Shown: piece by piece, positions 3,561 through 60,570 of the stretch
How the letters are laid out: the number at the start of each line of letters is the position of its first letter
Position numbering within the stretch: the stretch's first letter is position 1
Assembly (NCBI GenBank): GCA_964036295.1
Contig: OZ038464.1
Coordinates: 25,648,508-25,712,507 of the forward strand
Direction of reading: 5' to 3'
Source: Plumapathes pennacea
Taxonomy: Eukaryota > Cnidaria > Anthozoa > Antipatharia > Myriopathidae
DNA length: 64,000 nt
The notes under the pieces: generated by a model
Database searches by the model: none
The model's input: only the letters and a program-made list of their open reading frames with translations
What the model was told of the DNA's origin: nothing
Position numbers and translations under genes: made by a program

Positions 3561-21219
<17,659 letters not shown>

Positions 21220-25900: not shown

Positions 25901-28900
25901 CTTTACCACTCAATTTTGTGCCATATTAGAGCTGTTTTCGGATGTGTTGTTGAAAACAAAAACCTAATCAAGTACTCTGCCAATCACAGAGGCTGTAAGA
26001 AACACTTTTAACCAATCAGAAGCCAAAGAACTTTTGTTCCTAATTATAGATTGTACTGTATGAGAGATTTGTCATTAAAAAAAGGCAATTGAATTACACA
26101 GATAATTGAATTACACAGACTACAACTGATGGGCCCTATAAATAATTTACCCTCTGAGGCTAACCTCACAGTACCCTGCCTGTTGAACATCAGTTTACTT
26201 GAGTCTTCCTGTAATTTCTTCAGCTGTCCAAACAGCAAACGCAGTTCTAGATAGTAAACTAACTGAAGTGGACCTGGAAATTAAATCTGGTCAGTGGTTA
26301 GGAGCTGTAGTACACAGCACAGGAGACAGTGGCTCCAGGAACAAGGCTGTGGTCAGTAAACCATTTTATTATATAGACATGAGTGTTTTACTGGAAAATA
26401 TACCGTGCGTAAAATCCATACGAAACTACATCCGGGACCTGAGTGGCATATTTTCTATATCCTCACTAGCGAGGATATCGTTGGAATCATTTCCCGTTTT
26501 CACACGGTTGTTTGTGCAATTTCTCATAAAACACTCGTGTCAAATATAATAAAAAGAAAATTACACGGCGGCTTGAAGATATGGATTTTATTTTCTTGTG
26601 GTAAAAACAATATTTTACTCACTTGCGAAGCGCTCGCTCATAAAATATTGTTTTTACCACTCGAAAATAAAATTCATATCTTTGCGCTACCGTGTAATAT
26701 CCTCTATATATTTCCTTCACCCTCAATATCTGATTTTACATGTACTGTGTATCTTCTGATGCCTAGATACATGTATTCTACTCAAAGTTTTCATTACCTT
26801 TCAATATTAAGAGCTCAGGTAGTAGATTCTATAGTTCTTCATATATTGATCATCATCTGTGTGTATGATTGGTCAAGGCCAGGGCAAGAAAATCTAGCTC
26901 GGCAAGTCAGATATTGTCAGGGGGTAGGGAGTATGCATGCTTATGAGATTGATAGTTGAAAATTAGCCTGGGCTTTTCTATGTTACATGTAGTAATAGTG
27001 AACAAATAATATGGGAGTCAAAAAGTTGCTATAATCATGACCAAAATGAGTTGGAATGATCTGAATACTGTACATGCTCTACTAATAACTCCCCCTTCCC
27101 CACCCCTCCCTTAACTAGCTGCCTGTTGTATGTTTCACAAGATGATGTCATCTAAGATAGTATATACTTTTAAAAGGCTTGTAACTTGCAACTTGTAATA
27201 TTATTGCAGCAATTAGCAACTTTTAGACTTGCATCCATTGTAATAATTACAATATTCGTAATAATAGTGCCGCATGAACTATCTGGGTAGTTAGTCATGG
27301 CAAAAAAAGTGATGTTCTGAATTACTGTTTGCATATTACATTATAAGTACAACCAATATTGTCCTTGAGGCATTCTGGGCTTTGATCACTGTCTTTACTA
27401 GAGGTTTACTGTAAATACATTTAGGATGATAATGATTGTAGTGTTTTTGCATTTTCCTCAAGGTCTGTGCACCGAGGTATATTTGGAGAGGATTCCCTCC
27501 TTTTCAAGAAAGGAGCCTGCATTATAAGTGGCCATTAGGTCGCTGCTTTCTCTTGGAGGGTTCATTGAATGGCGTCAAGAAAACCATGGAGCCTTGCAAG
27601 GGTGGTGAGTATTGCAGGATTTTTTCTCTCAACCTCTGTTCCGTACTTGTTTTTTGTAATGCTGGTAAATGAGAAACTGTACCATTTGTCACTGATGAAA
27701 CATAACAAATTTCTGCTGGATAAAATAACTTTAATTTCATTTATTTATTACCAGACATGAACAATATTGACAGAAACAATTAGTGTTTTGACATCTTCAT
27801 TTAAATTGCAGAGTCCTATGGAACCTATGGGTATGGCTATTGTCAGGCTGGTATGAGCGCCGAATATACAGACACAGAGAACTTAGTGATGGGTGCTGTG
27901 GGAATAGCAGAGTGGAAGGGTACGTTATTGTTGTTACTGTACAGTACAGTGGAACCTCCCTGAGCACACTTATTTGTCCCTATTTACACTATGGTCTAAT
28001 GAGCTGGGGTACTATGTGTCACACTAGGCTAAATAAATTTATAACAAAGCAAAATAAATGCCTTTGCTGTAGTTTCTTTGTAAATAAAAGCAACCACCTC
28101 TCTTAAGCAACCGTGACCATCATCGAGCCTCACTGTTGGAGTTTTCCTATGGTTTTTTACCTCCAGTATGTGACCACTCTGTGCTCTTAAAGGGCAAATT
28201 TCTAAAGAAGAACTAACTTCCTTGCAGATACCAGATTGGACAAAACACTAACATATGTATTGTAATTTGCAGCAGGACCAAGGTTGATTTCTTAAAACAC
28301 ATGTTGTTTTTCAGTCACTAAAAGTGCATTATTTGACACTGGTTGTGGCTCAAAGCCAAATAAGGCCTCCCATGGTGAGAAATTCCTGTAAGCGACCACC
28401 TATCGTAAGTGACCACTTAAAGATGAATGAAGGGTGGTCACTTACAGGAGGTTCCACTGTAGTTGTGTTCAACTTGTGTTTTGTTTGTCAACTTGCATTA
28501 GATGGCTTAAGCAAAAAACTGAGGTTTATGACAGAAACCTAGCAAAGCATTTAACCCTTTCACTCCCAAGAGTGATCAACTTCAATTTTCTCCTTCAGTT
28601 TCTCGCCAGAAATGTATCACACAGTAAGGAGAACTTTGCTTTTGATACCTTGCTAAAGTTACAGCAGATTGAACTATCAATTCTCACTACATCACTCATA
28701 CATTTTCCTCTTAAAGGTTAGGAGAATCTGCATTTTGATTTGGGAGTGAAAGGGTTCAAAACTAATTTACTGAAGAAGACAATGTGCACCAGAGTATGTG
28801 AAATTGAGCTGATCTTGGGGTCATCATGATTTCAGTATTGCTAGAAATGCATAACACTTTGGGTGGTGGTGGTTAAATTTGTACACACTAGTAGTTTTCT

Positions 28901-31900
28901 TCCCTTCCCAGAGATTGTATATTTACTGTATCATACAGTATGTGGCTTTTTATAACTTTTTATGAGATAAAAGATATTGAATTATCGATTCTCACTACAT
29001 CACTTATAGGAGTTAAAGGTTAACCCAAAAGGTTCAGTTGTAATGTCAATTGTAAATTATGTATGTATGTCACACAATTGGGTGCACTATACAGCTGTAT
29101 GCTGCTTGTGTAATTTCTTCAAGGATCATATGAAAACTGTGGCTTTTCTTTCCTTTATTAAGGTGGACTTGCATACTACAGTCATGATTATGATACAACT
29201 GTGTTCTCAACTCAGGATCAGCTGGCACGTGCAGATTACATGGGTAAGTTTTGTGTGTACTGTAGCACATCTCAGGAGTGACATCTTCTCCTTCAGTTTC
29301 TTACCAGAGAGATAAGTCGTACAGTAATGAGAACTTGGCTTTTGATATGTACTGTAGCTTGCTGATCAAACTATCAGTTCTCAGTACATCACTCACACAT
29401 TTTCTTCTGAAGAAATGTTTTGCACACAGCTGTTGTGTATGGGTCATATTGTGGAGGTAGCTGATGACCAGCTTGTATATGCAGTACAGAGTTATACAGT
29501 CAATAGATATGGGTTTACCTCGGATTACTTTTAGCTACTTTTACAGTATATGTAGCATTACCAAAGTTTGACTTGTTTATACAGTACTGTATAGCAGGGG
29601 GCAGACCCAGAAGGGTTTCCAATAGTTTACTCAAACCAGTCAGATTCCCAGCTTCCAAAGGGTGTTTTAGAGAGGATTTTCCCTCCAGGGTTGCATGCAT
29701 TACTCGGACCCCACAGGGGCTCAGACTTTTACCTGGATATTTTCTCTCTCTGTAGTGGACATATTTCTTGGGTCTTGATTTTTTGCGTTGTGCCACAGGT
29801 TATGCGGTGGTGGGAGGCCATTTTTCCAAACCTTCCAGTTTGGGTGAGTTGACTGATCTATCAGAGAGATGTTCATGGAGCAGAGACGATACACATAGAG
29901 GCTCTTTTGCGTCAAAGACCGCAAGATCCTAAGAATAACCGTCCATTTGGAAGGGAAAACGAGAAGCTGTGTATTCTGGAAGTATTGCCTAATGAACGCG
30001 CATAGCTGCTAAAATTTCACTGAAGTTCAAGCAACTTTGTTGAAACTTTGCAACTTTGAAGGTTTTTGAAACGACGAAAAAACTTTTACATGTTTGCAGC
30101 GATGCAAATATTGCGAAAACTTGTTGTTAACGGGATGTCACAAAATTTGACGCAACATCATATCGTCACAAATCGTCGTTTAACATCTTTGCTTGTAGTA
30201 TCACCTTTATGAGGCACGTTTCTGATGACGCCGAATGTGATGTTATTTCTTCTTCTTATTCCTTCTTTGATTTGTAAACAGAGTTTGTTGGAGGAGCACC
30301 CAGAGCTGAAAATGTCAAAGGAAAGGTAAAGAGATATTTAGTTAACTTCAACAACATGATCATCGTCATCATTATTATCATTTAATCATTTTGTCGTTGT
30401 CATCATCATACTGTAGTGTTCGTGTTCGTGTTCGTGCTCTTGCTCCTGCTCCTGCTCCTGCTCTTGATCGTTTTTATGCTCGTGTTCGTGTTTGTGTTCG
30501 TACTCGTGTTCGTGCTCGTGCTCGTGCTCGTGCTCATGTTCGTGCTCGTGTTCGTGTTTATGTCCGTCTCTTGCCCTCCTCGTCTTGTCATTGTTTTCCT
30601 TGTTATTGTCACGTGTTTGTGTTTTTGTTTTTGTTGTGCTGGTTTGGTTTTTTGTTTTTTATTTTGGGCTCGTTTTGTCCCTGTTAATTTGTTCTCGGTC
30701 ATATTTCCTATTCATGTTCACTAGTTATTGTTGTTACTACATTGTATTTTCTCATCTTGATCTAGGTCCAGATGTACAATGTGCTTTATGATAGTCTGTC
30801 GGTGTCATCATCTCTCCCTCCGCCTCAAAACATTGGCGTATGTATCACAACATCTGAGTATGAACATGTAAACTATGAATCCAACACGTCCATTCCTTTT
30901 TTCCTGTAAAGTACGGCGAAGTTTGCTTATTTGTTGCTACCTATTGCTCATACACTATAAAACGTCGACAAATTTGCAAGTTAAGCCCGGATGGACGAAA
31001 AAAACACGAGATATTTATGTCTGCCGAGCTGTGCAATCATCGTGTTGGCATACTAGACTATAAAATATGTCCAAGATGCTCTTCGAGATTGATTTGCACT
31101 GCACATTGGTTTCGTCGTAGAAAGAAAAAGTATAGACTAAGAAATTATTTGATACCTGTACAGTACATCCAGTGCCATAGTCCCATATCGGGGGGTCCAC
31201 ATCCAGTAACAGCTCATCTTCTCTTTCCAAACTCATTCTGCGCCACGGTGTTGGCGCATCAAATCGAACAGAAAAGGTTTTTTTAAATGATAGAAAAGCG
31301 CAACATGCAAAAAATAACTTGGGAAATCGATCACTCATACTTTCAAGACTCGTTTGAAAATTGTTTATTTTTTTTGCATACAGTTCTCCTTTAAGTGGCT
31401 GTTAGTACAGTAAATATAATTTAAGTTATCTTTTATTTTCAGATCGGTAGCTATTTTGGAAGTGCGCTGTGTGCGGTGGATCTCAATTCTGACGGGTACA
31501 GTTGAACTTTTGCTGCAGTGCTGTGTTCGTGTCGTGTTCGTGCTCGTGTTCGTGCTGTGTTCGTGTTCTTGTTTGTGCTCATGTTCGTGCTCGTGTTTGT
31601 GCTCATGTTCGTGCTCGTGTTTGTGCTCGTGTTCGTGTTCGTGCTGTGTTCGTGTTCGTGTTCGTGCTCGTGTTTGTGCTCATGTTCGTATACTGAGCGA
31701 CGAAAGAAACGTTACACTTAGTAAATTAGTCAAATATTTTTATCATTTTTAATAATAATTTAGCGAACATTTTTTGCCGTTCTCCGGTTGACTTGAGTAT
31801 GATTTTGTTTTATGATTTTTCAAAGCAATCACATGATTACTTTCAACAGGCTAAAAACGGCTCTTTTAAATGATCAAGTTCGTAATTAATTTTGTGTCTA

Positions 31901-32124
31901 TACTGCAGTTACACAGACGTTTTAGTTGGTGCTCCACGATTTACGGAAAGCTTCGATGAAGGCCGAGTGTTTATTTACATCAACAATAGGAAGGTACGAT
32001 TTGTGCTCGTGGAGTATGTCGCTGGAATATTGGATCTTGAGTACTCGTTCTACTTATTCTTCTTTTTCTCGTCTTCCTTCTTGTTCATCCCGACCTTGTT
32101 CTTGTTCATCATCATCATCATCTA

Positions 32125-32199
<75 letters not shown>

Positions 32200-35100
32200 C
32201 CTCGTCATTTTCTTGTGGTGGTTGTTGTTGACAGTTCTTCTATTTTTTTGTTTGTCGTCGTTATTTTCTTGTGATAGATGTTGTTGTTGTTGTTGTTGTC
32301 GTAGTTTGTAGTCAATATTTAAAAGTAAGCAACAACCCTAGCCAAAAGTGCTGGGACACTTAGCAATTTATCTGAAAATTATGATACTTTGACCCTCCCC
32401 GCCCCTCTCCCCCCCATACAATGTTGACTGAGAGCGCTCAAAACGCACTCCCTTTATGCAACATTGCATAGTGGGGGGGGGGAGTTTAAGTTTTGGAAAA
32501 GGAGCCGCTTTCGTTGTTGAACAGAGAGTGATGGTGAAAAATAGCATTTTTTCAGAGTGTCTAACATACTTTTGACCAAGATTGTAGCCCGAAATGTCAG
32601 GCGTCTTCTCGACTCTTAACCCAAGCTTGGGCCGAGGAGACGACTGACATTTCAGGCTAAAAATATACCATTCTATTATATTCCCAGGGCGCACTGAATC
32701 CCAGTGAGACTGTTCTCAAAGGCGACAATGTACCTCGTGCCCAGTTTGGTTCAGCGATTGCTGCTATTGGAGATATAAACAAGGACGGATTTCAAGGTAC
32801 GCAGAGTGATACACAGTACTGTAAAGCCCACGCGGAGCAGTCCCAAAAATGCGTAAAGAGTCTAGCATATGTTGTGGACGGTTGTTCATGAGAATGTTTG
32901 GGTAATGTCTTGGTAAAGTGGTTCAGAATTCGTTAGTGTCCAAGTTCGGCAATCGTTGTAAAGTAATATGTTCTTTAAGGGTGCTGAACATTGCAAATTG
33001 CGTGCGCAGATGTTGGAATAGAAATAAATGTACAAGAAACTCCAAAAAAAAAAAAAATGCAATATTTACGCAGAGTTTTGCGTGAAATCAACAGACCATA
33101 AGGTCTCTTGGTGAAATACGATGTCTGACTGAGCAATGTTGTAAATTTGTGCTGTATAATTGTGCAATGTTGTAAACAGATGTGGCCATTGGTGCCCCGT
33201 ATGAAAAAGACGGAGCTGGAAGTGGTGCAGTGTACATTTATCACGGGACGAGAGAAGGAATAGAAAGCCAGTACAGGCAGGTACGTCACGCGGCTGCGTA
33301 AATCTTTAGAAACCACTTCCCTCAACAATCGCAGACGCTTGCATGTACACCAGTCACATGACCTCGCTCGGCAACCACATGATCATTGCTTCTGTTAAGA
33401 GTGTTCATTTTGGCCACAACTTTGAGTTTCATTTGACAGTTCAGGGGCCAATTCGATAAAACATTTACAAGTTTATTTTACAACTCGGACTAAATTCGCC
33501 ACACGTTAGAACACACTTTAATCCAATACAATGGCCAATTACTGTTGTGGTTGTGCACTGGGAACCTGTATCTGTAATACTGTACAGACCTTTCTGGAGT
33601 AGAGTCCGTTTAGTGGTGTTTGAATAATGGTCTAACTTGTAAAATACACTTGTAAATGTTTATTGAATTGACCCCAGGTGTTGTCAGTTTTCTTGGTTGC
33701 CTGGTTTTCGGGGTCTGATACAGACGGCGTTTACTCTAATCGTCCGATAGTACAGTGTTCTATTGTTCTTGTGTTGTTCTTGTAGGTGTCTTCGTCGTCG
33801 TTGTTGTTGTTTTCATTTGTTGTCGTTGTGTGTGGTGTTGTTTTGTTATCTTTTTAATGTCGTTGTCGTCGTTATCATTGTCGTTGGTTGTTGTTTAGAT
33901 TGTTGTTTAGATTGTTGTTGTTTAGATTGTTGTTGTTTAGATTGTTGTTGTTAATTGACATTGAAGTGGTTTTTGGATGACTGTCGACGGTAATCATGGA
34001 TTACTTTAACCTTTTGGATTGGTCCAAACAAGTTTGGAAGCATTCTTGGCCAATCAGGTCCTAAAGCAAAACCCAACTGTGATTTTCTCACGCCAGCAAA
34101 CAAGTGGTAATGGCGTTTTCTCGCACTGCTGATTGGTTTCTTCTTCAAAGTAAAACCCATGAAAATTACTTTGTCTTCCGATTGGTTGAAAGCGTTTTCT
34201 TACAGCCTCTGCGATTGGCGATGTATACCTGTTTTTATACTGCACCGCTTTGTAAAAGCAAAAAGAGAATTTTTGTTGATCATTGACGTTTGTCTTTTAG
34301 AAAATCCTGGGTTCTTCTGTTGGACAAGCGGGCCTGCAGATGTTTGGGCAGTCCATTTCTGGAAACGTCGATATGGATAACAATCAGTTTCCCGGTGTGT
34401 TGAGGAGTTGTGATTGCGGAACACTAAGATTACTGCAGTTTATTAGGCCCGGGTCAAACGCCGCACTTCACATGAGCCGAACTCAATGCAAATTAGCTCA
34501 AACAATGGAATTGAGTTCGGCTCATGTGAGGTACGGCCTTTAACCCTGGCCTTATTGATTTATTAACACATTTGCTTGAGGTTAAAATGTTCGCGTCTGC
34601 CGCGGGGAAATGGCGGAGAACTTAATTTTGTTCAAGGTCAGGGAATTTTGATCTTGGGCTAGTGGAGAAATAAATCATTTTCAACAAGCAAGAAAACTGG
34701 ATAAAAAAGATTGGAAGATTCAGAAGCAAGCTGAAATTTAACACAGCCATATACCGTTTTCATTTAGTCTCCGAGAGCCTAATCACGTTCAAATTAATTA
34801 CTATCGTGTTGCGCGTACAAATGAAAAGGAGAGCTGCACTCATAATGCGCACTTTTCCCAACAGATGTTGCGATTGGAGCATACGGTTCCGAAAAAGCAA
34901 TCTTCCTGAGGTATGTATAGAGCAAGAGACTTTGACAAGCACAAGTGATGTGCGTCAAGTAGTGAAAACAAGCACAGGATCGAGAAATATGCGCCAAGTA
35001 AAACCGAGCAACGCAAGGGTAGCGCAAGATAGATGAAACGTCTTTATTTCTCTTGTGCTTGTTATCGCCGGCTACTGTAAGTCCGAACTAAATTAAAGTC

Positions 35101-38100
35101 CACTATGACTTGAAAAGGCAGGGTTTTTTTTTTAAATGATTCCCAAGAGTGGAATTTCGAAAGCGATGTGTTTTCAAATGAAATCGTATAGTTGATAGGA
35201 GCAGCTTCCCTGCATAAACTTTAGTTAATTTAACACACTTATTGCCATATTATATCCGGTGACAACCGCAGCAGGCGATGACTTGTCATTTTCTTTGGAC
35301 AAAGATACGGCCGGCACTATACTGATACATCTAAAAAAAAAGTAGTAGATGTTGTGTTCTTTGTTGTAAAAATAAGATTTGTTGCCTTGTACAGATCCCG
35401 ACGGATTATCGATGTTATTGGTAAAGTGACGCTTAGCGAGTCGCGTATTGTTCTGGACAGCAACTCGACGTCATGCCAAGACAAGAAAGGAAATTCTCAC
35501 AAATGGTAACAATTGGCGTTTATTTTGCTCAGCCTCCATTACAATAATTTTATCGGGAATCATTATTTTTGCGATATTGTCTTTGTAAAGGTATTTCGGT
35601 ACCTATTTTTTTACGATTTCGTGTGACCCACTCTACCCAATTAATGATTGGAACAATTAAACAATTGTTTTGCGATTTGTCAGTTTTCTGCGGCATTTCA
35701 CCTAACGGTTTTACCTTCATCGTTTATAAAGTTAATACTTAAAGATCTGGAATGCAATACTTGAATATTTAACAGCATTGCTTCTTCCTTCTACAGCTTA
35801 AAGGTCACCATAACGTTTGAGTTCTTTGATCCAACACGACCAGGAGACACAGGTAAGAATAATTGGATTGAGTACTTTATAGTCTAAGTCAACCAAATAC
35901 TGTAAGCTCATGCCTGTCCCTCCGTTACTTACTCACTCACTTACGCATTACTCACTCACGTACCCACTCACTCACGTACTTACTCACTTGCGTACTTACT
36001 TGCTCACGTACTCACTCACTCACGTACTTACTTGCTCACGTACTCACTCACGTACTTGCTCACGTACTCGCGTACTTACTTGCTCACGTACTTACTCACG
36101 TACTCACTCACGTACTTGCTCACGTACTTACTCACGTACTTACTTGCTCACGTACTCACTCACGTATTTACTTGCTCACGTACTCACTCACGTATTTACT
36201 TGCTCACGTACTTACTCACGTACTTACTCACTTGCGTACTTGCTCACGTACTCACTTGCGTACTTACTTGCTCACGTACTCACTCACGTACTTACTTGCT
36301 CACGTACTCACTTTACTCGTGTACTCACTCGCGTCTTCACTCACTCACGTACCTACTCACTCATTACTCACTTGCTCACTCATTCACACTCGCACGTACT
36401 CACTGAATCATTCACGTACTCGTGTTACTCACGTGTTCACTCACTCACTCACTCTATCTCATAGAGACAGCGTATATTGGATGCACGCGGAACTTATGCT
36501 CAAGATGAGTTATCCATCGTCTCTTTTGTTTCTACCTACAGATTTGACACTTGACTATAAATTAGTACTGGACCGAGGTGTGCCGGAGAATCTGCGTAGA
36601 ATGTATTTCTTAAACGACAAATCTGAAAGAAGTTTTCAAGTCCAGGGAAGCTACACAATCAAGTTACAGAATACACCTGAGAGTTTGCCCGAACTTACTG
36701 TGTACATCATGGTAGGCTTTTATTTTGTTTACGTCTTGAGTAAACAAAACGAATAAGAAAACGATGCCCAATTCACACTGAACACGATACGTAAGACATA
36801 TTTTTATATAGATATCGATGAAATACCAGGTTTTGAGTCTTCTTGACTTATCTGACATCCCCTCAAAACTTTCCACTACTGCTTTCGGAGCAACAGCGAC
36901 TCTGACGATATTCTCACTTTTTTTTGTATCCAAAACAGGAGAAGGAACAGATCGCCGATGTTGTCAGCGAGTTGACTTTTGATCTGACGTTTTCTCTGAA
37001 TAAAACTTCCAGTTGTGTCAACAACTTGTGTCCAGTGCTGAACGACTACTTGAAAAGTGAAGCACGAGCTGTGGTGAGTCTAGAAACAGACAGACAGACA
37101 GAGACCGCCAGAGAGACAGGAAGACAGTAACACACAGACAGCGGAAATCAGACCGCAAAGAAAAAGTCATACAAGAGACAGACAGAGACACGTAGAGGCA
37201 GACAGACAGACAAAGACTAGTAAAAGGACCAAGTACAGTAGAACATCGCAAACTCAAACTTCCAGGGGAAACGAGAAATGAGTTAGCGGGAGTTCAAGTT
37301 AGCCAATAGTAAATGACTGAAAGGGAAATCCAAGGGAAATAGGTTTGAGTTGCAGGTAGCGGGGAGTTCGAGTTAACCGAGTCTGAGTTAGCGGGGGTTC
37401 TACTGTACAAAGAATGGGGAAAAAGACAAAGACAAAAGCAAAGAAACTACAGACACAAACAAGCAGAAAGAATAAGAACAGACAGGCGGACAGTGATAAA
37501 GGGATAGAAAAAGACAAACTGTACAAAGGCGAAACAGACGAATATGCAAAACAATAGGGACGAATCAAGAGAAGAGAATAGCTTTATCAAGAGAAGAGAA
37601 TAACTTTATTAAGAGAAGAGAATAACTTTATTAAGAGAAGAGAATAGCTTTATTAAGAGAAGAGAATAACTTTATTAAGAGAAGAGAATAACTTTATTAA
37701 GAGAAGAGAATAGCTTTATTAAGAGAAGAGAATAGCTTTATTAAGAGAAGAGAATAGCTTTATTAAGAGAAGAGAATAGCTTTATTAAGAGAAGAGAATA
37801 GCTTTATTAAGAGAAGAGAATAACTTTATTAAGAGAAGAGAATAGCTTTATTAAGAGAAGAGAATAACTTTATTAAGAGAAGAGAATAGCTTTATTAAGA
37901 GAAGAGAATAGCTTTTTTAAGAGAAGAGAATAACTTTATTGAGAGAAGAGAATAACTTTATTAAGAGAAGAGAATAACTTTATTAAGAGAAGAGAATAGC
38001 TTTATTAAGAGAAGAGAACAGCTTTATTAAGAGAAGAGAATAACTTTATTAAGAGAAGAGAATAGCTTTATCAAGAGAAGAGAATAACTTTATTAAGAGA

Positions 38101-39677
38101 AGAGAATAACTTTATTAAGTTGTACTGTACTGCATTCTTTATCTGTGACTCTTTCTCTTTTAGGCATATTTCCAGAAAGAGTGTAAGAAGGACAAGTGTG
38201 TCCTCGATTTAGCCCTCGAAGGAAAAATCGAGTATCAGGGGTAAGCGTGTGAATGGAGAAACTTTTGGGGTGAATTAGAATTTAGAAATAGTATATTTTG
38301 GGCAGCATACTCCTACCTACAATTATGACGAGTGCGTCCCCCCCGTCCCCCCCCCTCCGGGGGGGGGGGGGTTTCCTCTTTCCGGGAGACCTACCGTGTG
38401 TAGTACTTGTGTGAATTGCTGAACATTTCTTTGTTGTTGTTATATTTCCCCCAGCGGTCATACACAGCTGAGGATCGGCCTGGTAAAAGAGATGACTGTT
38501 CAGTTGACTGTTGAAAACAAGGAGGTGGACACTGCATACGATGCCAAAGTTATCCTGAACTACCCGTCCTTCTTGGGCTATATCGGCGTTCGATCTGAGG
38601 AGGTATACCACCTCACCGCCCGTCTTTCTTTATGACCCATTTTGCTATCTTCGTTAACTATGACATCAACTCAACAATGACACATTTTACGCTGCCATGC
38701 CCACGCATACCAGAGCTCACAGGGACCAGTGTATTGATGAAATCTGACACGTTTTACTCGTCATTTCTTACTTTGTGTTTTCGTCTTTTTTGTTTTGTGT
38801 TTTCTTCTTTCATCTCCTCTTGTCTCTTGTTTTGTTTGCTCCTTTCTTTCCAGAGACCTCTGTCAGTTCCTTCCCCGTTTCTTTCCACAACCTCTTCTTT
38901 TCTTTTCGTTGTTCTCTTTTCTTCCTCTTCACTCTGACTATTAATCTCTCTTCTCTCTTTTTTTTTTTTTTTTTTTTTCACCTCTTCTCTGTTGCTTTTT
39001 TTCTTCTTTTCTCTTCTCTTTCTGTTCGCTGTTATTAACTTCCGTCTTTCTTCTAATTTAGCGTTTAGTTTGTGAGAAAAGCCAAGGAGAGAACGGTACC
39101 GGAATTTTGACTTGTACCGTAGGTAGCCCAGCCAATCCGTTGGGAGGCCAGTCCAAGGTAAATCGTAAAGAATACATTCACGGGAAAGTTGTTTGCTCAC
39201 ACACACACTACCCTGTTTGTAACAAGCTTTATCACTGGCATGGAACATATAGTACGCACGTTCTGATTGGTCAATTTACCGATCCGTATATTTTCTCAAC
39301 GAAACTTTGTGTTTACATCGTTAGCTTGGTCAGTAAGTTATTGAACCTCGTTTTTTTGTTTTTGTTTTTTGTTTTTTGTTTTTTGTTTTGTTTGTTTTGT
39401 TTGTTTGTTTTTTTTAGTTTTTTTTAGTTTTTTTTTTTTTTTTTGTTTCCCTCACCTTATGGCCTACGTACTTAGCGCTGGGGCCATGAGGCGAAGAAAA
39501 ATCTTGGGAAAAACATCTGCGCACTCGTTCAATAAGATATGTACTTCGGAGAAACAGGACGTAGGCTGGGAGCGTGTAAAGGCCTCTTATCAGACCTCTC
39601 CTGTAGCATAGAAAACAGCTGTAATTTCCACGCTTTTGTCCCATTTCTGTTATGTGTGAGATCCAAATGTTCCAGTG

Positions 39678-39741
<64 letters not shown>

Positions 39742-42700
39742 TATTATTTCTTTCTTTTCACGAGATGTTGTTGTGTGCTTTTACCCTCAGGGAAGTTTTG
39801 GAGTCAAATTTTCAACAAGGCATGTGAAGAATGACTTTGTAATAAAAGTCGAAGCTTCAAGGTAAAACGTTATCATAATTTTTTTTTGTTGATAAATTTC
39901 ATATCTCTGCGCGCCCATGTATTATTCTCTATTTATCCTTGCAGTGGTGTGGTGGAAGATACCAACGAAAAGAACAATAAAATAGATGATTTCCAAGTGA
40001 AAGTCAAGTTTGAAACCGATCTGGAAATGAAAGGGTAAGTCCAGTTAGTAAATGCATGTATATAAGTACATACATGAAGTATCTTTTGACCTGCTGGATT
40101 TTTCAATTTTTTAGGTTTGTTTCTTCTACGTTTTTCTGTTTCTGATTCTTTCTTCCTTCGACTCATAAATCCTACGGATGTGTGCGTGTACGTATTGTCT
40201 AGTTTGACACACTGTGACAGAAGCTCCAGGTCCAGGAAAAAGTCTGGGAAGAACTTATTTTTTTTTAGTTCAGGGAAACGTCAGGGAGCTTCATTTATTG
40301 TTCATGCTGCTCCAGGTTTAAAGACTTTTCTTAAGATGTAGAATATGAGCACTGCAACTGCCTGTAAAAAATAACGCAATCTTTTTTTTTGTCACTGGTT
40401 GTCATTTTTCACATAATTTAACGACGATTACTGTCAGTTACTGGTGTTTTATTAGTGTTCCGACAAATTTCGGACGAAGGGCACTAGTGTTTTTTGGGAA
40501 GTAAAAAGTTGGAATTATTTCGCGTCTTATGAGTGGTGAGTGGTGAGACTGAATATATTCCAGTGAAAATTGTTTATCCAGAAGACATAGGACAGTAGCC
40601 CATAACAGTGCTCTCATAGAGCTCTTTTGTTCTCATATTGACAGCTCTAGCAATCCTGATCAAGTTGTGTATTCCGAGGAAGGCGCAAAGGATGCGAAAA
40701 ACATGCATCAAAAAGACATCGGACCGGAAATCATCCAAACTCTACAGGTATTGCCTTTAAAAATTTGCATATCTATTTTTATTTCGTATCTCGCGATCTA
40801 AAAAGTAAATTGCTCTAAACATAACCCGAAACCCAACCCTATTCCTAGGCCTAAAAAAATATCAAACGCGTACAAAATCTCTAACATAAAAAACTGCATG
40901 CTAAACAAGGCCCATACACAAAAATGCTCTTACATCATGCGATGGTTGACACCAGGGACAGGGTGTAAAATTTGATTTAAGCTAATCTAGGATTAATCAA
41001 TTTTCTTTTCTATGTGCCTTGGTGAAGAAAATGCCAGCTGAATGGTCGTGGCTGAAAACTTTTCTGAAAGTAAACTTAAAATAAAAACTGTGGATTCAAG
41101 TGCAGAAGAATCCTCAACTAAGCCAACCTCAAGCCAAGAAACTCAAACACAAGGACTCGATACTCAGCTATAAGTTTATAAATTTCTTTTTTTTTTCTTT
41201 TCTTTTCTTTCCTTTCCTTTTTTTTTTTTTTTTTTTTTTTTTTTTCATGTAACTTTTTTCGAATGCAGATAGTTTTACATGATTAACAGTCTAACGGTAG
41301 TAACTTATTTCCAGTGGACTTATTACAAAGGGACAGTTAGAACTGAAACTGTATAAAGTCAAATTTCCAGCTATGCATCCTTATTTGTCAACCCTTGTAT
41401 AGATCCGTAATAATGGCCCGAGTCCAGTTGACGGCTCCGAAGTTCAAATCAGCGTCCCTAGTTTCTACGGAAATGTGATTGGGCCGGAGAACTACCTGCT
41501 CTATTTGTTACATGTCGAGGTAAGCAAGTGCTGTAGCTGTACTCGACCATCCATGGCCTTCTTATTGTGTTGGTGCGCTTTCTTGTATTGTACTGTTTGT
41601 ATTCCGCCAAGCAGTTTACGGAAAACAAGGTTTGTTTGTCAGACTGGTTGAAACGTGTAGATCGATTGATTCTTTGATTGGTGGCTCATCATGGATGGAT
41701 TGATTTGGTTGATTGAATGATAGTTTGATTTATTGGTTGATTTATTGATTGATGGATTTATCGATTGATTAATTGAGCGATTGATTGATTAATTGATTGA
41801 TCGATTGGTTAATTGGTTGATTTATTAGTTGATTGACTGATTGATTATTGATTGATTGTCTGTTCAATTTATAAGTTGATTGATACTTCGATTCTCCGAC
41901 TGACTGACTGATTTATTTATTGATATTGCTGTTTGTTTGTTTGTTGGTTGGTTGGTTGGATCATTTGTTTTATTGATTAATTCATTGATTTATATATTGA
42001 TTGCAGCTTACTGGCCCTGGAACCTGTAATGTTACGGTCAATCCCGAGAATATTCTCAAAGAGGTTTGTTCATGCAAACTATTAGAGCGGTTTTCAGATG
42101 ACTGTCGAAAGTAATCGTGTGATTGCTTTGGTTTTGCGTTTGCTACGCTTTCCGATTGGTCCAAACAAGTTTAGAAACATTCTTGACCAATCAAGAGCAA
42201 AAGCAAAACCTGATTGCGATCTCCTCACCGCGAACGCAAGCAAGTGGCGTGCAAGAGCACGTGTTTCTCTGTAGACTTGCTTTACTGATAAACTTTGCTT
42301 GTACATCTTTTCAGAACGCGACAGCAAGACCTGAAAAAGACAACAGACGCCGAAAGCGACGGGAAGTGGAGTCGAAAACACTGGTATACACTATATTGAA
42401 TCAGACGTGGAATTTCTTTCGTATTATACACACGGAAGAAAAAATCTTTTTGTTTGTGTCACACACAAGAAAACACCTTTTTGTTTGTGTTCTTAGGATT
42501 GTCGCACTACCGCGTGCAAGACATTCAAATGCAGCCTGGGTCTGCTGCAAGTCGGTAGCACGGTAGAAATCGAAATAACGGCTCGATTGTGGCAAAGCAC
42601 CCTTGTGAAGGTAAAACAACTTTCAAGACATCATTTGTGTATATCCTGTCTTTATTCCATCAATTATTGGCTCTGTATCTGATTGTTTTTCTGTCTCATG

Positions 42701-44454
42701 GTATGTTTTTATGTCTTTATTGGCTCTGTATCTGACTGTTTTTCTGTCTCATGGTATGTTTTATGTCTTTATTGGCTCTGTATCTGACTGTTTTTCTGTC
42801 TCATGTTATGTTTTATGTCTTTATTGGCTCTGTATCTGGCTGTTTTTCTGTCTCGTGGTATGTTTTTATGTCTTTATTGGCTCTGTGTATCTGACTGTTT
42901 TTCTGTCTCATGGTATGTTTTTGTTTTTATGTCTATTGGTTTGCTGTTTCTGGCAGTCTTTCTCTTTTTCCATGTAAACTTAATTTTAAGCAGCTTGACA
43001 GTTGATTGATCATGTGTCTTTTTTTTTTTCTTTTTTTTTTTTGTTTGCTTTTCTTGTTTTTCTGCAGAAAAAGGTCGGAGTTGTAGATTTGGAGACAGAT
43101 GCTCGAGTCAAAGTTCCAGAGACGTTTTCTCAACCCGACGTAGATAATGACCAAGTGACGGTAATTCAGTTGAGTTTTTGGGTGGTACCCTCACAAAGGC
43201 GCACAAATCGTAACTGTTATTTTCTGCATACTAACCTGATCATTTTTTTTCTTTTTCTTTTTGCAATGCGTAACATTTGCCCGTAAACAACAACATGACG
43301 TTAGTATTATTTGATTATTGTACAAAGCCGATTGTTATAGTTCTAATAGCGACACACTTAAAGTCATGTAGCGTCGATTCGATCTCCGATGGTGCTAATT
43401 TGCCGTTTGTGCAAAAACAACACATTTTAAAGAGGAGAGGGGCGCTTATTCGAGGGAAGCGTTTATTTGAGAATTTTTTAAACGAGTGCGAGTGTGTCGC
43501 GAACTGCGCACGACTGTAAAAATGGCTTATTTAATTTGCTCTTTAGATAACAACGCGTGCTAACCCAGCTAAGAGTGAGGTAGAAGGCAAGTCGACTCCG
43601 TGGTGGGTGATCTTAGTCGCTGTTCTGGGTGGGGTACTGTTGCTGGTCATTGCTATTGTTGTCCTGTATAAGGTGAGTGTCCTCCCCTCCATTGAGTGGA
43701 AAATATGTTGCTCTTGACTGCATTCTCGTGACATGGACTGGCGTTTAGTAAATCTTCATACCAGTACCCCAACCCCCCCCCCCCCCCCCTTACCCACCTA
43801 CTTATAGAAGCACCTATACGAGAATATCGCATACACCCCCACCCACCCCACCCCCTTTCTTTAATTGCCTTTTTCTATCTGTCGGTCTGTCTGTCTGTCT
43901 GTCATTCTTTCTTTCGTTTTGAAATCTTTGAAATTCTTTTGAAGTCTTGTCAGTATTGTGTATAAATATCGTGTATACATTTGTGTGATAGAACCAGCGT
44001 TCGCTCGCTCATTCATTCATTAATGGTGATCCGTTATGTTTCACATTGCAGCCAGCCTTGAAAAATGTTTCCTATAAACGCTCTTCCTATATACTTTTGT
44101 TAAAATCAGTGCGTTTGATCCTAAAATACGTGCCCACAAACTCGTGCTTTGCTTCTTGACCCCCAATCAACTTAGGAATTAACACAATATTAGATCATGC
44201 TGACAACCGTAGGGCTGCCAACATTTCACTGACAGGCGTAACCCCCAGTAGCAGTGCATTACTATAATGCTGTGTGCAACGCATCAGCGAAAAGCAGTAA
44301 CCCGCAACACTGTCATATGCAGAGTTAGTGCATCTTACTTTAACATAATTATTAATTGTCACATTTTCCTCAGTTTGGATTCTTCAGACGAAAACAATAT
44401 GGAAAGGAAATCTCCGACCCGCAGACCGAAGAAAGAGAACCGATGAACATTTAG
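22952..44454 (+). CDS. Integrin alpha subunit, copy C (32 exons, 1041 aa, no I domain)
   Basis: Complete paralog of copy B with the same 32-exon plan and phases. Exons: 22952-23136, 23724-23842, 26224-26351, 27463-27604, 27812-27919, 29163-29243, 29799-29843, 30282-30325, 30766-30837, 31443-31495, 31909-31993, 32688-32796, 33180-33280, 34301-34394, 34865-34910, 35395-35505, 35797-35852, 36542-36711, 36939-37073, 38164-38240, 38455-38602, 39062-39157, 39791-39861, 39945-40034, 40645-40747, 41403-41519, 42007-42063, 42315-42383, 42497-42610, 43068-43160, 43547-43672, 44374-44454. The ATG at 22952 gives a signal peptide before FNLDV. The propeller has VCAPRY, FVGGAPRA and calcium sites DLNSDGYTD, DINKDGFQD and DMDNNQFPD. 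Exon 4 is 18 bases longer than in copy B, adding residues around RGFPPFQE, and exon 9 differs strongly (VQMYNVLYDS against VLIYSKTGSD). RRRKRR at about 892-897 predicts furin cleavage. The tail reads FGFFRRKQYGKEISDPQ and ends EPMNI, so the hinge is GFFRR rather than GFFKR. A matrix receptor pairing with a beta chain is inferred. Confidence 0.95.
24360..24720 (+). pseudogene. Fragment resembling the basic N-terminal repeats of Helitron-encoded proteins
   Basis: An 84-codon ORF (24360-24614) starts MENLTEKLETQQSREARLQM and then repeats an Arg/Glu/Gln-rich unit of about 20 residues (RRNRETSEQQRMNADRKR, then similar). The repeat continues as DNA to about 24690 after the stop. Such RxxETxEQREAR arrays are, from memory, common at the start of Helitron helicase proteins and related transposon ORFs. 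No Rep or helicase motif is present. It lies in intron 2 of copy C. A low-complexity coincidence is the alternative. Confidence 0.35.
25927..26040. mobile_element. Partial MITE, AGCGGTTTT family
   Basis: It begins TTAGAGCTGTTTTCGGATG, the family terminus, and then jumps to internal text in the opposite orientation (CCAATCACAGAGGCTGTAAG, AACCAATCAGAAG). It is a rearranged or deleted copy in intron 2 of copy C. A shorter fragment of the same internal text lies near 10503-10560. Confidence 0.5.
26574..26690. repeat. Long-arm hairpin in intron 3 of copy C
   Basis: GATATGGATTTTATTTTC and GGTAAAAACAATATTTTA on the left pair with TAAAATATTGTTTTTACC and GAAAATAAAATTCATATC on the right, around a centre at CACTTGCGAAGCGCTCGCTC. 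Arms are about 45 bases with few mismatches. The outer flanks have CCGTG-type partners about 170 bases away (26402 and 26690), so the hairpin may be the core of a larger element. Confidence 0.65.
27947..28459. mobile_element. Pogo-like MITE with intact ends and TA flanks
   Basis: CAGTGGAACCTCC at 27947 and GGAGGTTCCACTG ending at 28459 are perfect inverted repeats, each flanked by TA. CAGT(G/A)GAACC termini with TA duplications are typical of pogo/Tigger-type DNA transposons (family knowledge). Internal text repeats GTGACCACT. No transposase is seen in 513 bp. It starts 28 bases after exon 5 of copy C. Confidence 0.8.
28553..28756. mobile_element. MITE, AACCCTTTCACTCCCAA family, copy 2
   Basis: AACCCTTTCACTCCCAA at the left and TTGGGAGTGAAAGGGTT at the right form a 17-bp perfect inverted repeat over 204 bases. 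Relatives are at 11893-12095 (full length), 29275-29420 (internal part) and 61690-61768 (right end). It lies in intron 5 of copy C. Confidence 0.75.
30410..30575. repeat. Hexanucleotide array (GTGTTC/GTGCTC), intron 8 of copy C
   Basis: Tandem TTCGTG and CTCGTG/CTCCTG units. All three plus frames and one minus frame are open across it (poly Phe-Val, Cys-Ser, Arg-Val and Asn-Thr), which explains the apparent ORFs; none is a gene. A similar array is in intron 10 of the same gene. Confidence 0.9.
31515..31692. repeat. Hexanucleotide array (GTGTTC/GTGCTC), intron 10 of copy C
   Basis: The same unit and strand as the intron 8 array, starting shortly after exon 10. ORFs through it are artefacts of the 6-bp period. 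Confidence 0.9.
32125..32205. repeat. GTTGTC then GTT array, intron 11 of copy C
   Basis: TCGTTGTCGTTGTCGTTG grades into pure GTT repeats. More GTT/GTC text follows to about 32310. Confidence 0.85.
33755..33955. repeat. GTT-rich low-complexity tract with TTTAGATTGTTG repeats
   Basis: In intron 13 of copy C, GTTGTTTAGATTGTT repeats four times from about 33890 after a GTC/GTT-rich stretch. The repeat ends directly at the next inverted-repeat element. Confidence 0.7.
33964..34230. mobile_element. MITE, AGCGGTTTT family, copy lacking its right end
   Basis: It begins AAGTGGTTTTTGGATGACTG and carries the family interior: ATTGGTCCAAACAAGTTTG, CCAATCAGG and GATTGGTTGAAAGCG. No right terminal repeat is found. 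It lies in intron 13 of copy C, just before exon 14 (34301). Confidence 0.55.
34446..34551. mobile_element. Small inverted-repeat element with TTA target duplication
   Basis: GGCCCGGGTCAAACGCC at the left and a diverged complement ending CCCTGGCC at the right are flanked by TTA on both sides. Inner arms (CACATGAGCCGAACTCAAT and complement) pair perfectly. The whole 106 bp can fold as one hairpin. It lies in intron 14 of copy C. Confidence 0.7.
35920..36450. repeat. TCACGTAC-rich tandem array, intron 17 of copy C
   Basis: More than 500 bases of ACTCACGTACTTACTTGCTC-type units with variable order, ending about 90 bases before exon 18. Apparent ORFs rich in Leu/Thr/Tyr come from this array. Confidence 0.9.
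37235..37405. mobile_element. Pogo-like MITE with TA flanks
   Basis: It begins CAGTAGAACATCGC after TA and ends GGGGGTTCTACTG before TA. Internal text (GAGTTAGCGGGAGTTC and TTGCAGGTAGCGGGG) repeats the terminal motif. It lies in intron 19 of copy C. Confidence 0.7.
37568..38119. repeat. 22-bp minisatellite, about 25 copies
   Basis: The unit is AAGAGAAGAGAATARCTTTATT, where one position alternates between A and G among copies. I count 25 copies with few other changes. On the minus strand each typical unit contains AATAAAG. It lies in intron 19 of copy C, ending about 45 bases before exon 20. Confidence 0.92.
39678..39755. repeat. TTA microsatellite
   Basis: Repeated ATT/TTA units in intron 22 of copy C, shortly before exon 23. 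A poly-Tyr ORF across it is an artefact. Confidence 0.9.
41655..41995. repeat. GATT-type tetranucleotide tract, intron 26 of copy C
   Basis: Loose GATTGATT repeats with TTTATTGATT and GGTTGGTTGG variants fill the intron up to the acceptor of exon 27. The position matches the GATT array in copy B. Confidence 0.75.
42084..42255. mobile_element. MITE, AGCGGTTTT family, left half
   Basis: It begins AGAGCGGTTTTCAGATGACT after TTA and follows the family to GCAAGTGGCG, then stops. Its first 150 bases match the element at 60105 closely. It lies in intron 27 of copy C, between exons 42007-42063 and 42315-42383. Confidence 0.65.
42655..42960. repeat. Tandem repeat of about 50 bp, intron 29 of copy C
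   Basis: The unit TTTATTGGCTCTGTATCTGA plus CTGTTTTTCTGTCTCATGGTATG and a short tail recurs about six times with small length changes. Hydrophobic ORFs (CLYWLCI and similar) come from the repeat. Confidence 0.88.
43766..43860. repeat. Poly(C) and CACCCC-rich tract
   Basis: A run of about 17 C, then ACCCCCACCCACCCC, in the last intron of copy C. Likely length-variable. Confidence 0.7.
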
Positions 44455-44579
44455 TCGATTTCTCTGACTCCAAATTCCCATTTGTTTTAGTGAAGCTACA
44501 AACGATTCAAACTGTTCAATGCTTGGCTGTCAGCTAGATAGGATTTCAGCGAGAACCTTAGATGATGTTGGGAGAGTTA

Positions 44580-44761
44580 GGCCCCGTTTACACTTAAAAA
44601 CTATTTCGGATACAAAGTTCCCACTTTCGATTCCGGATTCGTTTTCTCTCTGGATTCACTAAAAATGACACCGGATTCGCAAAAACTAGTGTAAACGCTT
44701 TCACGAATCCGGAAACAAATGTCTCGAATCCGGATAAATTCACTCTAGTGTAAACGGGGCC
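44580..44761. mobile_element. MITE with GGCCCCGTTTACACT ends, TTA duplication
   Basis: Perfect terminal GGCCCCGTTTACACT and AGTGTAAACGGGGCC, flanked by TTA on both sides, length 182. Internal text is palindromic around GGATTCGTTTTC and GAATCCGGA motifs. It lies in the 3' region of copy C, between the two alternative tail exons. Confidence 0.8.
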
Positions 44762-44770
44762 TTAGTTTGA

Positions 44771-44952
44771 GGCCCCGTTTACACTTGAAAACTGTTTCGG
44801 ATACAAAGTTCCCACTTTCGATTCTGGATTCGTTTTCTCTCCGGATTCACTAAAAATGACCCCGGATTCACAAAAACTAGTGCAAACGCTTTCACGAATC
44901 CGGAAACAAATGTCTCGAATCCGGATAAATTCGCTCTAGTGTAAACGGGGCC
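44771..44952. mobile_element. Second MITE copy with GGCCCCGTTTACACT ends, TGA duplication
   Basis: 182 bases, nearly identical to the element just before it and in the same orientation, but flanked by TGA on both sides. The different flanking triplets indicate separate insertion rather than a simple tandem duplication. Confidence 0.8.
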
Positions 44953-45021
44953 TGAGAGAACTTATTTGGTAGATAGTTGGATGAATTGTCTCGCGCATCG
45001 CGTTACTGACATAATCCCTCG

Positions 45022-45147
45022 TTGCTGGATAGGATTTCAGGGAAATTCCACGAATCCCATGTTGCTACATAGGATTTCAGGGAAATTCCACGAATCCCAT
45101 GTTGCTACATAGGATTTCACTGGGAAATTCCACGAATCCCACGTTGC
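45022..45147. repeat. Three-copy 40-bp tandem repeat
   Basis: The unit GTTGCTACATAGGATTTCAG plus GGAAATTCCACGAATCCCAT recurs three times. A single partial unit lies near 44537, before the two MITEs. Confidence 0.75.
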
Positions 45148-45610
45148 TTTTACAGTATCTTTGTTTCGGCTGTTAAAAAAATTGTGTCAGAATGTTTGTT
45201 CGTGCTTGTGATTAGGATCAGTTTAAATTTAGTGATTCGTCTAGTTGTTACTTTCGATTATAAATGCAATTTTTGATTACCCGATTGTCCGTGTGATTAG
45301 TTCTTTTTTCAGACTTCGCAAGTCTGCCACTTCCCAAAACCTTGAGAAAAGGCTTATTCTTGACGTCAAATTTTTAGTTTCACATCAAAATGTCTAAGAT
45401 CTCAGGAATCCGACCTACTAACGTAAAAATAACTGTACCCCAGACTAATTGTATTAGAATTTCGTTGCTGTAATGATTTTCACGGCACGCTAGGTTATAA
45501 CCCTGCTCGTGGTTTTGTATGTTTGTTTTTTGTTATTATTTTTGTTCGGAAACTTAAAGAAGGACTGGTTGGTTGTTTAACTTTGCACGTATTTTCGTTG
45601 CATGCTGTAG

Positions 45611-45685
45611 GTTGGGTTTTTCAAACGCAAAACGATCAAGAACATTTCGGAACCCACAATGGATTCTGAAGTCATCTTGACATAG
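45611..45685 (+). CDS. Alternative terminal exon of integrin copy C (second cytoplasmic tail)
   Basis: After a TGTAG acceptor, this exon reads VGFFKRKTIKNISEPTMDSE then VILT and TAG. It begins in phase 0, so exon 31 (43547-43672) can splice directly to it, skipping 44374-44454. It keeps the canonical GFFKR hinge but shares almost nothing with the usual tail after the hinge. Vertebrate integrin alpha 3, 6 and 7 chains use alternative tail exons (family knowledge). The spliced form would be 1039 aa. The other reading is the remnant last exon of a lost fourth gene. A pyrimidine-containing stretch precedes the acceptor, and a poly(A) signal candidate follows at 47129. Confidence 0.75.
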   Translation, partial: VGFFKRKTIKNISEPTMDSEVILT

Positions 45686-47160
45686 GACCCTGCATGCTTC
45701 ATCAACCCGGCATACGTGACGGTAAACTCCTGTAGTTGTAGTTTTAATTTGCACTTTTTCATAATTGTCGTTTTGGGTAATTCCCGTTTTGGGTTGGTTA
45801 GGAGTCTGCTATACTTGATCGTTTGGACGATGGAACTCATCTTTGGTGTGAAGCTCGATGCGAAGCTTCAAACAATGGCGTTTCCTCTTTTTCAGCCACC
45901 ATTAATTCGTCTTCTATTTTGGAAACCACTCAGAAACACCCAAATATGAAGTCTTGTGAATGACTACTACATGAATCTAACTGCTTGTTATCGAATTTTT
46001 GGTCTTCGGACGTTCAATTGATTATAGCGAAATACTGCACGACGTTAGTAAATTTCGTGAGTGCCAGCCACAGATCTGATCATGTCCGGTATTAGTATAT
46101 TATCGCTGTAGACGCAACCTAAAGGGAAGTGATGCCCTTGGACTCGAGGTTCAATGGACACAAACATATTGCTCTGAACTTCTAATTTCACCATGTTTTT
46201 GTTGTTGTTGTTGTTTTTGTTGTTTTTGTTGTTGTTGTTTATTTCACGAGTATTAAGAGAATTGATATTCTGGGTTTATTCAGAGGTGGCAATTGCTGTT
46301 CTCGACTAAACGATAGTTATTGCAGACTGGTTGTACGAATCCAATTGCACAAACACACGAAAAGAGGATATATTGAATTTATAAGAATTTAGCCTACAAT
46401 CAGTACACTGTGTGACAAAACTAATGCACAATATAGACAAAACATTAATATCACTGATATAATTATTTATCATCATTTTTTTTATAAGATCATGTCCTGA
46501 ACTTGAAATACTGACAATAGTTATCCAAAGACATTCAGTTTTCGCATAAACTGAAACCAAGGTGAAATTTGAAACGGGAGTTGAGAAGTAGCAGCTAATG
46601 TAAGTCCCCAGTGAAAAAAAACTGGTGTTGGAGTTTTGTTGAGTCAGTTGTGAAAATAGGAGCTTTAGGTTTCATTAGACAGTCAGGCAGGAGTTAAAAT
46701 TGTGAGTTTGATTTGTACTTCGGTTGAGTAAATGTACCTTTGGCAGTGAATGGGTAACAAAAGTTGAAGTAGCAGGAAGAAAAACTCTGGTGTTACTTTG
46801 ACGCGAAGGACGTTAGCGTTAGCTGTTGTTCAATGCTGAATACGCCAACTTCGACCTTGCATGGAATCCTTTTCTTCTGAGGACATTCTAGCTTGTGTCT
46901 TAGAAATAGCGTTATTCTAGCTCCTAAAGTAGTTTCAGAGTTGCTGTCGTTTACAGGTGTTTTTAGAAATGTGAATTTTTATAATGAAACTGATTAATGA
47001 AAATATGTATTTTGCGACTATTTAGTGATTTTCTAACGAATAACTTTGAATTGTACAAGTGTGCAATAACATTTTTATATCGAATGTTTTTTGTAAATTA
47101 GAAGATAGATATAAGTGATAGATAAGCAAATAAATTGTATCAAGGTGCCGCGTTTTGTAT
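45686..47160 (+). other. Putative long 3' UTR of integrin copy C (alternative form)
   Basis: AT-rich sequence without a convincing ORF, including a GTT-rich tract near 46199-46241. AATAAA at 47129-47134 is followed by GU-rich text, so transcripts ending with the 45611 exon could finish near 47160. No comparable AATAAA was seen between 44455 and 45610 for the other form. Confidence 0.4.
47129..47134 (+). terminator. Candidate poly(A) signal for integrin copy C
   Basis: AATAAA followed within 30 bases by TGCCGCGTTTTGTATTAATT and a TGTCTGG stretch, a plausible cleavage region. Confidence 0.4.
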
Positions 47161-47751
47161 TAATTTTGTCTGGTGCAGGTGTAATCTAATGTAAAATTGA
47201 AAACAATAGCTGGGAACCTATTCTCTCTCTTTCATAAAAATCCGTATTTTATCCCAAGGGAGGCTTAGATAAGTATACACAGTAGACTTGTGCGTGAAGG
47301 AACCTTAGTCACTGCACAGCCTGTTAGATTTTTGCGGACTCGTGAGCCGGTCCGGGAAAACGTCATGCGAAGGCTCTGGACCTGACAAAAGGCCCGTCAA
47401 TCCGGGCCCGTTCGGAGTTAATGTTCTTTACACTTGAAAAGTTGTACAAATTTCACCGGATTTTCAGAGCGCGCAAAAGCTGGCGAGGCAAGATCCGTAT
47501 GGTATACAGGGAAATAAATTTGAATCAAAAGGAGATCCATTTTAAGTTTGCATGCGTGTCATGCCGGGACATAAGTGTGAAGAGCTTCAAGAAAGCAGAA
47601 GTTGGAAGTTAGTGTAATACTTGAAGTCCCGTGACACAGCCGGCAGGTAAACGGCACTACCAAAACTGACGACCGAAACAAATCTATGAAAAGGTCGAAA
47701 ATATTACGTTTTACATCGTATTCAATAAAATAATAAACATAATGGGGGTAT

Positions 47752-47757
47752 TTTATT
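47752..47757 (-). terminator. Candidate poly(A) signal for SPARC
   Basis: AATAAA on the minus strand about 225 bases beyond the SPARC stop codon (47982-47984). Other AT-rich hexamers are nearby, so the assignment is tentative. Confidence 0.35.

Positions 47758-48608: not shown

Positions 48609-48668
<60 letters not shown>

Positions 48669-60536: not shown

Positions 60537-60570
<34 letters not shown>

Follow-up and report, generated by a model that had tools for sequence, protein, structure and literature searches.

Gene 2, the 3'-most of three tandem integrin alpha paralogues in Plumapathes pennacea, carries two tail-coding exons, each with its own stop, downstream of one membrane-helix exon. 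It lies in a 64,000-nucleotide stretch of contig OZ038464.1 (contig C3 here; G000:C3:25648508-25712507; the window, throughout), whose + strand holds a tandem series of integrin alpha genes (genes 0, 1 and 2). On balance, the sequence favours a reading in which the second of these exons, tail B, is a used alternative tail reached through acceptor choice; gene 2 would then offer one integrin alpha ectodomain and membrane helix with two optional short cytoplasmic tails. A first-pass annotation of this DNA had placed the helix exon and tails A and B at coordinates that prove exact; all are in phase 0, with acceptors and stops present as it described. It numbered the helix exon 31, which our gene 2 model makes number 30 of 31. 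The three exons are:

43547..43672, + strand: exon 30 of 31, membrane helix, ITTRANPAKSEVEGKSTPWWVILVAVLGGVLLLVIAIVVLYK, ending in phase 0 with donor gtgagt
44374..44454, + strand: tail exon A, FGFFRRKQYGKEISDPQTEEREPMNI then stop TAG, phase 0, preceded by cctcag
45611..45685, + strand: tail exon B, VGFFKRKTIKNISEPTMDSEVILT then stop TAG, phase 0, preceded by ctgtag

Gene 2 is an integrin alpha subunit without an I domain. Its protein has Pfam domains PF01839 (FG-GAP), PF08441, PF20805 and PF20806 (integrin alpha Ig-like domains 1-3) above cut-off, and its best match in the PDB is integrin alpha-V (E 3.3e-98, alignment over 8-1004). The closest solved relatives are alpha-V, alpha-4 and alpha-5; alpha-6 scores lower, but the alpha-6 chain is a 627-residue ectodomain. 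Ending in tail A, the predicted protein is 1017 aa long; ending in tail B, it has 1015 aa.

Joined to the helix exon, either tail is predicted to give a normal integrin helix–hinge, a membrane helix running into a GFFKR-type hinge. Helix plus tail B matches the alphaIIb helix–hinge structure with E 5.2e-9 (39.1 bits; YKVGFFKRK against WKVGFFKRN), and helix plus tail A follows slightly below (E 2.1e-8, 37.4 bits). Each tail exon encodes its own hinge, the two differing at 4 of 18 bases: tail A has GFFRR and ends in EPMNI, tail B has GFFKR and ends in EVILT. The Lys-to-Arg substitution in tail A, to which the first-pass annotation had drawn attention, occurs in this exon only among the genes of the cluster, genes 0 and 1 having GFFKR. 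It is a conservative change, and GFFRR is also the hinge of vertebrate alpha9. The motif AG+NNN+GFF[KR]R is found four times on the + strand of the window (1513, 21137, 44372 and 45609), every time at an integrin tail, and never on the − strand. Past the TAG of tail B, the frame stays open for a further 87 codons (45686-45949, + strand; DPACFINPAYV...), probably by chance.

Homology and selection of tail B

The relationships of the two tails were read against the neighbouring genes, whose extents are as follows:

22952..44454, + strand: gene 2, complete 31-exon integrin alpha; exon phases chain to one final stop
3561..21219, + strand: gene 1, tandem paralogue with 31 exons; phases chain to one stop, 1006 aa
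21139-21219, + strand: single tail exon of gene 1, LGFFKRKRYGKDVSNPQYDETEPMNI
12..1586, + strand: last two exons of gene 0, a helix exon from 12 and a tail exon at 1515-1586 (YGFFKRKRIGKEISNPQNDEEED)

The models of genes 1 and 2 are sequence-predicted: open frames were aligned, donors and acceptors agreeing in both genes were chosen and then joined, and exons 1, 7 and 27 were placed by hand. The two proteins are identical at 691 of 1002 aligned residues (NG86 dN 0.20, dS 0.64).

Tail A is the counterpart of the tails of its neighbours, sharing 17 of 26 residues with gene 1 and 14 of 23 with gene 0. The first-pass annotation held that tails A and B share only the hinge, a statement that the alignments overturn: with the hinge included, tail B is identical to the gene 0 tail at 13 of 22 positions, to the gene 1 tail at 10 of 24 and to tail A at 9 of 24. 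Past the hinge, its similarity still exceeds that of shuffled sequences (p 0.0015 against gene 0, 0.014 against gene 1, 0.041 against tail A and 0.0025 for the sum of the three, each p-value, here and below, being a single, uncorrected test). In a tblastn search of the window, tail B recovers the gene 0 tail at 65% identity (E 0.001). By these comparisons, tails A and B are homologous terminal exons, B being the diverged one.

Its third codon positions differ from those of tail A at 17 of 24 sites, from gene 1 at 16 of 24 and from gene 0 at 14 of 22, against 9 of 26 between gene 1 and tail A (Fisher p 0.013). Third positions of tail B are thus near saturation relative to gene 1 and tail A, which suggests either that B split off before genes 1 and 2 parted or that its rate of change has been higher at every position. 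Divergence at codon positions 1 and 2 is lower than at position 3 in each comparison: 0.40 against 0.71 for tail A (one-sided Fisher p 0.012), 0.44 against 0.67 for gene 1 (p 0.056) and 0.32 against 0.64 for gene 0 (p 0.014). The tail B hinge, GFFKRK, shows three base differences to gene 0 and three to gene 1, all of them synonymous (p 0.0085), a pattern of purifying selection on the hinge. When 20,000 neutral runs were simulated, hinge, open frame and AG were all kept in 4.6%, 0.37%, 0.065% and 0 of them at 0.2, 0.4, 0.6 and 1.0 substitutions per site, respectively. Since the hinge changes are synonymous only, despite third positions near saturation, tail B appears to have been under selection for a long time, and very likely, as far as codon comparison can tell, as an integrin tail for most of its history.

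Tail B, as we envisage it, originated when the terminal exon was duplicated, an event that most likely preceded the parting of genes 1 and 2. A duplication unit that ended between A and B would omit B from the other copies, and the confinement of tail B to gene 2 may reflect the position of this gene as the 3'-most of the three.

Splice-site choice and competing explanations

Among the 60 donors of genes 1 and 2, that of exon 30, at 11.3, outscores 58. Of the acceptors downstream of it, that of tail A scores 3.69 (above 1 of 58) and that of tail B 5.69 (above 10 of 58). The 71 GTs from the stop of tail A to tail B reach 4.1 at best (44968); all 60 donors, when scored with their own matrix, lie above this value, the lowest at 4.4. 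Intronic decoy donors above 5.8 are expected about 1.8 times per 1,150 bp, and none occurs between the two tails. Nor is there any AATAAA or ATTAAA, by sequence match, in 44455..45610 on the + strand. The first such signal beyond tail B is a candidate for a shared 3' end:

47129..47134, + strand: first AATAAA past tail B, by sequence match

With neither a strong donor nor an AATAAA between them, A and B are likeliest to be two acceptors of one terminal region; tail A would most likely be a terminal exon, the choice being between two acceptors and not between two internal exons. The first-pass annotation had spoken of two mutually exclusive tail exons. Two in-phase exons, each preceded by an acceptor, are indeed there, but two alternative acceptors now seem likelier than two alternative internal exons.

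The strong exon 30 donor (43672) would thus join tail A through the near acceptor (44374) or tail B through the far one (45611), and a terminal region common to both would probably end at the poly(A) signals located from 47129 onwards. The tail B sequence would then fall within the 3' untranslated region of messages that use tail A. Because both predicted tails retain the GFFxR hinge, whose GFF and closing Arg help to keep the beta subunit in place in the resting state, either should remain able to clasp that subunit. As these residues are kept in both, any difference should lie in the partners of the distal tail. Past the hinge, the predicted tails diverge, A keeping the acidic stretch and EPMNI end of the gene 1 tail and B having SEPTMDSEVILT. 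A tail switch would alter distal-tail partners and leave ligand binding unchanged. The MNI end of tail A and of the gene 1 tail presumably fits a class II PDZ-binding end, which the ILT of tail B does not.

Two sets of repeats lie in the interval between the tails. Two tandem copies resembling a miniature inverted-repeat transposable element (187 nt, 95% identical, spacing 191, with 16-nt inverted ends AGGCCCCGTTTACACT) occupy 44579-44956 and overlap neither tail exon. A 40-nt repeat (TAGGATTTCAGGGAAATTCCACGAATCCCATGTTGCT...) occurs three times at 45013-45148, with a weaker copy at 44522 directly behind tail A.

Several observations weigh against the use of tail B. Both acceptors are weak for gene 2, and that of tail B ranks only 7 of 171 AGs in 43673-47130, six others scoring higher; the acceptor score therefore proves nothing, and the sequence is silent on which acceptor wins. 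AATAAA and ATTAAA would be missing by chance from the 1,156 bp between the tails with a probability of 0.30, and the interval does contain variant signals (GATAAA at 44733 and 44924, TATAAA at 45259). When tail B is searched against the window, a chance match at 57125 on the other strand, interrupted by a stop, reaches the same score as the gene 1 tail (21.6 bits, E 0.018), so that only the gene 0 match rises above chance on its own. The tests for selection use 22 to 24 codons, are not independent and include one of three above 0.05. Moreover, tblastn over the window with the tails detected no second tail behind genes 0 and 1 (best match there, E 3.2), the search returning the four known tails and otherwise chance matches.

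The selection on tail B could also have acted in a gene now lost. On this account, which we hold unlikely but take seriously, a fourth tandem integrin alpha gene lost its other exons to deletion, and tail B is its surviving terminal exon, still intact because the loss was recent; any splicing to it from gene 2 would be accidental. The locus is a tandem array, tail B appears older than the split of genes 1 and 2, as expected of the tail of a separate gene, and it has no counterpart found behind genes 0 and 1. An orphan first exon, which encodes a signal peptide in 61 codons and has phase 2 and donor gtatgt, lies upstream of the window at C3:25629662-25629846, 1.5 kb before gene 0's own. It is 87% identical in DNA to exon 1 of gene 1, with an intact frame (dN 0.061, dS 0.285), and may either serve gene 0 as an alternative first exon or be left over from a copy since lost. 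It shows that lone end exons occur at this locus, and tail B may likewise be what is left of a vanished fourth gene. This account is weakened by the lack of other exon remnants: tblastn with the gene 2 protein (E up to 1) detects none in 44455-45605 or 45690-64000, nor in 1590-3555 or 21220-22945. The deletion would need to take 30 exons and to end inside the last intron, and the kept frame, hinge and acceptor demand that it be recent. Even as a relic, tail B leaves gene 2 with two tails in reach of one donor. A match to the gene 2 protein at 22254-22535 (E 0.31) is meaningless.

That tail B is joined at a low level as a functionless splicing by-product, with tail A the sole meaningful tail, we consider improbable. 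Tail A corresponds, in conserved form, to the tails of the neighbouring genes, its acceptor is nearest to the donor and both acceptors score weakly; but a by-product would not account for hinge differences that are synonymous only, or for codon positions 1 and 2 that have diverged less than position 3. Far less credible still is a cassette arrangement like that of vertebrate alpha6, in which messages containing tail A would be spliced on from a weak donor behind it to B's exon, and messages using B would leave tail A out. The GT at 44968 (4.1) is no worse than 3 of the 60 real donors under leave-one-out scoring, which makes a weak donor behind tail A possible and counts against acceptor choice; in-sample, however, it falls below all 60, and no decoy exceeds 5.8 where about 1.8 are expected. 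Chance resemblance, with tail B not an integrin exon at all, is just as hard to credit. Tail B has only 24 codons, and the 15-position Pfam model PF00357 leaves it below the 20.2-bit cut-off (11.4 bits, E 0.35). That model equally misses the undoubted tails of gene 1 (13.5 bits) and gene 0 (8.5 bits) and does not list tail A, a result that also tells against our reading. Genome-wide, across 290 Mb in 24 contigs, the hinge pattern AGNNNGGNTTYTTYARRMG gave 17 matches against 22 for the reversed-pattern control and AGNNNGGNTTYTTYCGNMG gave 11 against 14, counts at background. Yet the hinge motif with its AG has a chance expectation of 1.4e-4 in 44457-47130 (2,674 bp, analytic), with one match in 3,000 dinucleotide shuffles, and the post-hinge homology has a p of about 0.0025. 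When the 28 hinge-pattern places, the 17 among them, were judged by eye, only the tails of genes 0, 1, 2A and 2B and that of a distant integrin alpha downstream (C3:25758014) were tail-like; around 16 of these places, tblastn was also used to look for a helix exon. Among these accounts, acceptor choice with tail B in use is the one towards which we lean.

The array and its surroundings

The remaining exons of gene 0 lie upstream of the window, its first exon at C3:25631343. Exon 27 of genes 1 and 2 carries a furin-like RRKRRE site (19074-19148 and 42315-42383, respectively), which we take to be the position at which integrin alphas are cut into heavy and light chains. The DNA around tail B (45500-45800) has one place in the genome, in a search that skipped common words. 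The gene 2 protein gave 48 listed matches, all within C3:25629662-25692958 (45 of 78 candidates scored), and among these there is no second close integrin alpha cluster; the list omits tail B and the distant downstream gene and is thus incomplete for diverged genes. That gene, a more diverged integrin alpha on the same strand (C3:about 25737696-25758110, tail LGFFKRQKFEGNVMESEKGTKEEKQKIFGEVY), lies about 45 kb beyond the window and was seen in pieces. Other integrin alphas may exist in the genome beyond those found here.

A family search with FG-GAP returned three places outside the cluster (C5:9404953, C5:9405324 and C8:18026939) and none inside it. C5:9404953-9405398, on the − strand, holds FG-GAP repeats of another gene (DLVIGAPGFSS, DLNRDGIDDLAVSAPS), whose likeness to gene 2 is limited to short propeller-type repeats (best E 1.9e-8); the C8:18026939 locus has no similarity to gene 2. 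In viral contigs the pattern matched 108 times, and in no case was a relative encoded.

Elsewhere in the window, a CAT/ATG-type trinucleotide repeat of more than 1 kb, open in several frames, fills about 9006-10195 in a gene 1 intron, and a strong GC skew (-0.30 for 8001-12000) is seen at this repeat region. A tRNA gene sits inside a gene 1 intron at 8125-8196 on the − strand (Rfam RF00005, 59.4 bits), the one Rfam match in the window at the gathering threshold. At 48116-48430, on the − strand, an open frame with EF-hand-like loops, recognized by eye (DLNGDGRLNEIEGQ, DLDGQDGITNDEW), belongs to a neighbouring gene.

Comparison with other integrins

Vertebrate alpha3 and alpha7 have A and B cytoplasmic variants, as does alpha6, and the first-pass annotation likened gene 2 to these three. 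In the account of alpha6 given in PMC5930856, the A and B variants have one ectodomain and helix and two tails differing after GFFKR; skipping of 130 nt shifts the frame to a new stop, and GFFKR is common to both tails (PMC5930856). The alpha6 GFFKR would lie outside the skipped exon. Gene 2 resembles alpha6 in having one ectodomain and helix with two possible tails. Unlike alpha6, as described there, it has no shared GFFKR, each tail exon bringing its own hinge; the helix exon joins both tails in phase 0, and tail A has no strong donor behind it. For these reasons the parallel with alpha3, alpha6 and alpha7 holds for the output, two tails from one gene, but not for the means, and the presence of a hinge in each exon keeps gene 2 from being classed with the vertebrate A/B switch.

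Other comparisons touch gene 2 in part. Integrin beta1 has A, B, C and D tail variants produced by splicing (PMC3412830), a choice of tail in an integrin subunit, but in a beta subunit; the C. elegans pat-3(sp) that the same source describes is an artificial splice mutant and not a natural variant (PMC3412830). Abalone ITGA8 is described as having mutually exclusive exons among exons 1-5, in the beta-propeller (PMC13170236); these are isoforms of an invertebrate integrin alpha, as in gene 2, but do not concern the cytoplasmic tail. Among cnidarian integrin alphas are AmItg-alpha1, which has no I domain, and NvItg-alpha1 (PMC2397394); the main text of that paper contains no word beginning 'splic', 'tail', 'tandem' or 'GFFKR'. 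Among the best matches in the open-licence literature, we found no paper describing an invertebrate integrin alpha with alternative cytoplasmic tails.

That an invertebrate integrin alpha evolved a tail switch of its own, independently of vertebrate alpha3, alpha6 and alpha7 and by duplication of a hinge-carrying terminal exon with a choice of acceptor, is a tentative proposal that we rate a little short of even. Were it true, the array, with its orphan first exon, would be a receptor locus in which the signal-peptide exon and the tail exon are both exchangeable. Use of tail B would be a clear instance of an end exon passing from a tandem array to an adjacent gene that survives, and would make it testable whether tail choice alone re-routes adhesion signals in an invertebrate. 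It would also mean that tail switching in integrin alphas is not confined to vertebrates but arose at least twice, in different gene architectures: in alpha6 with a hinge common to both tails, and in gene 2 with a hinge in each.

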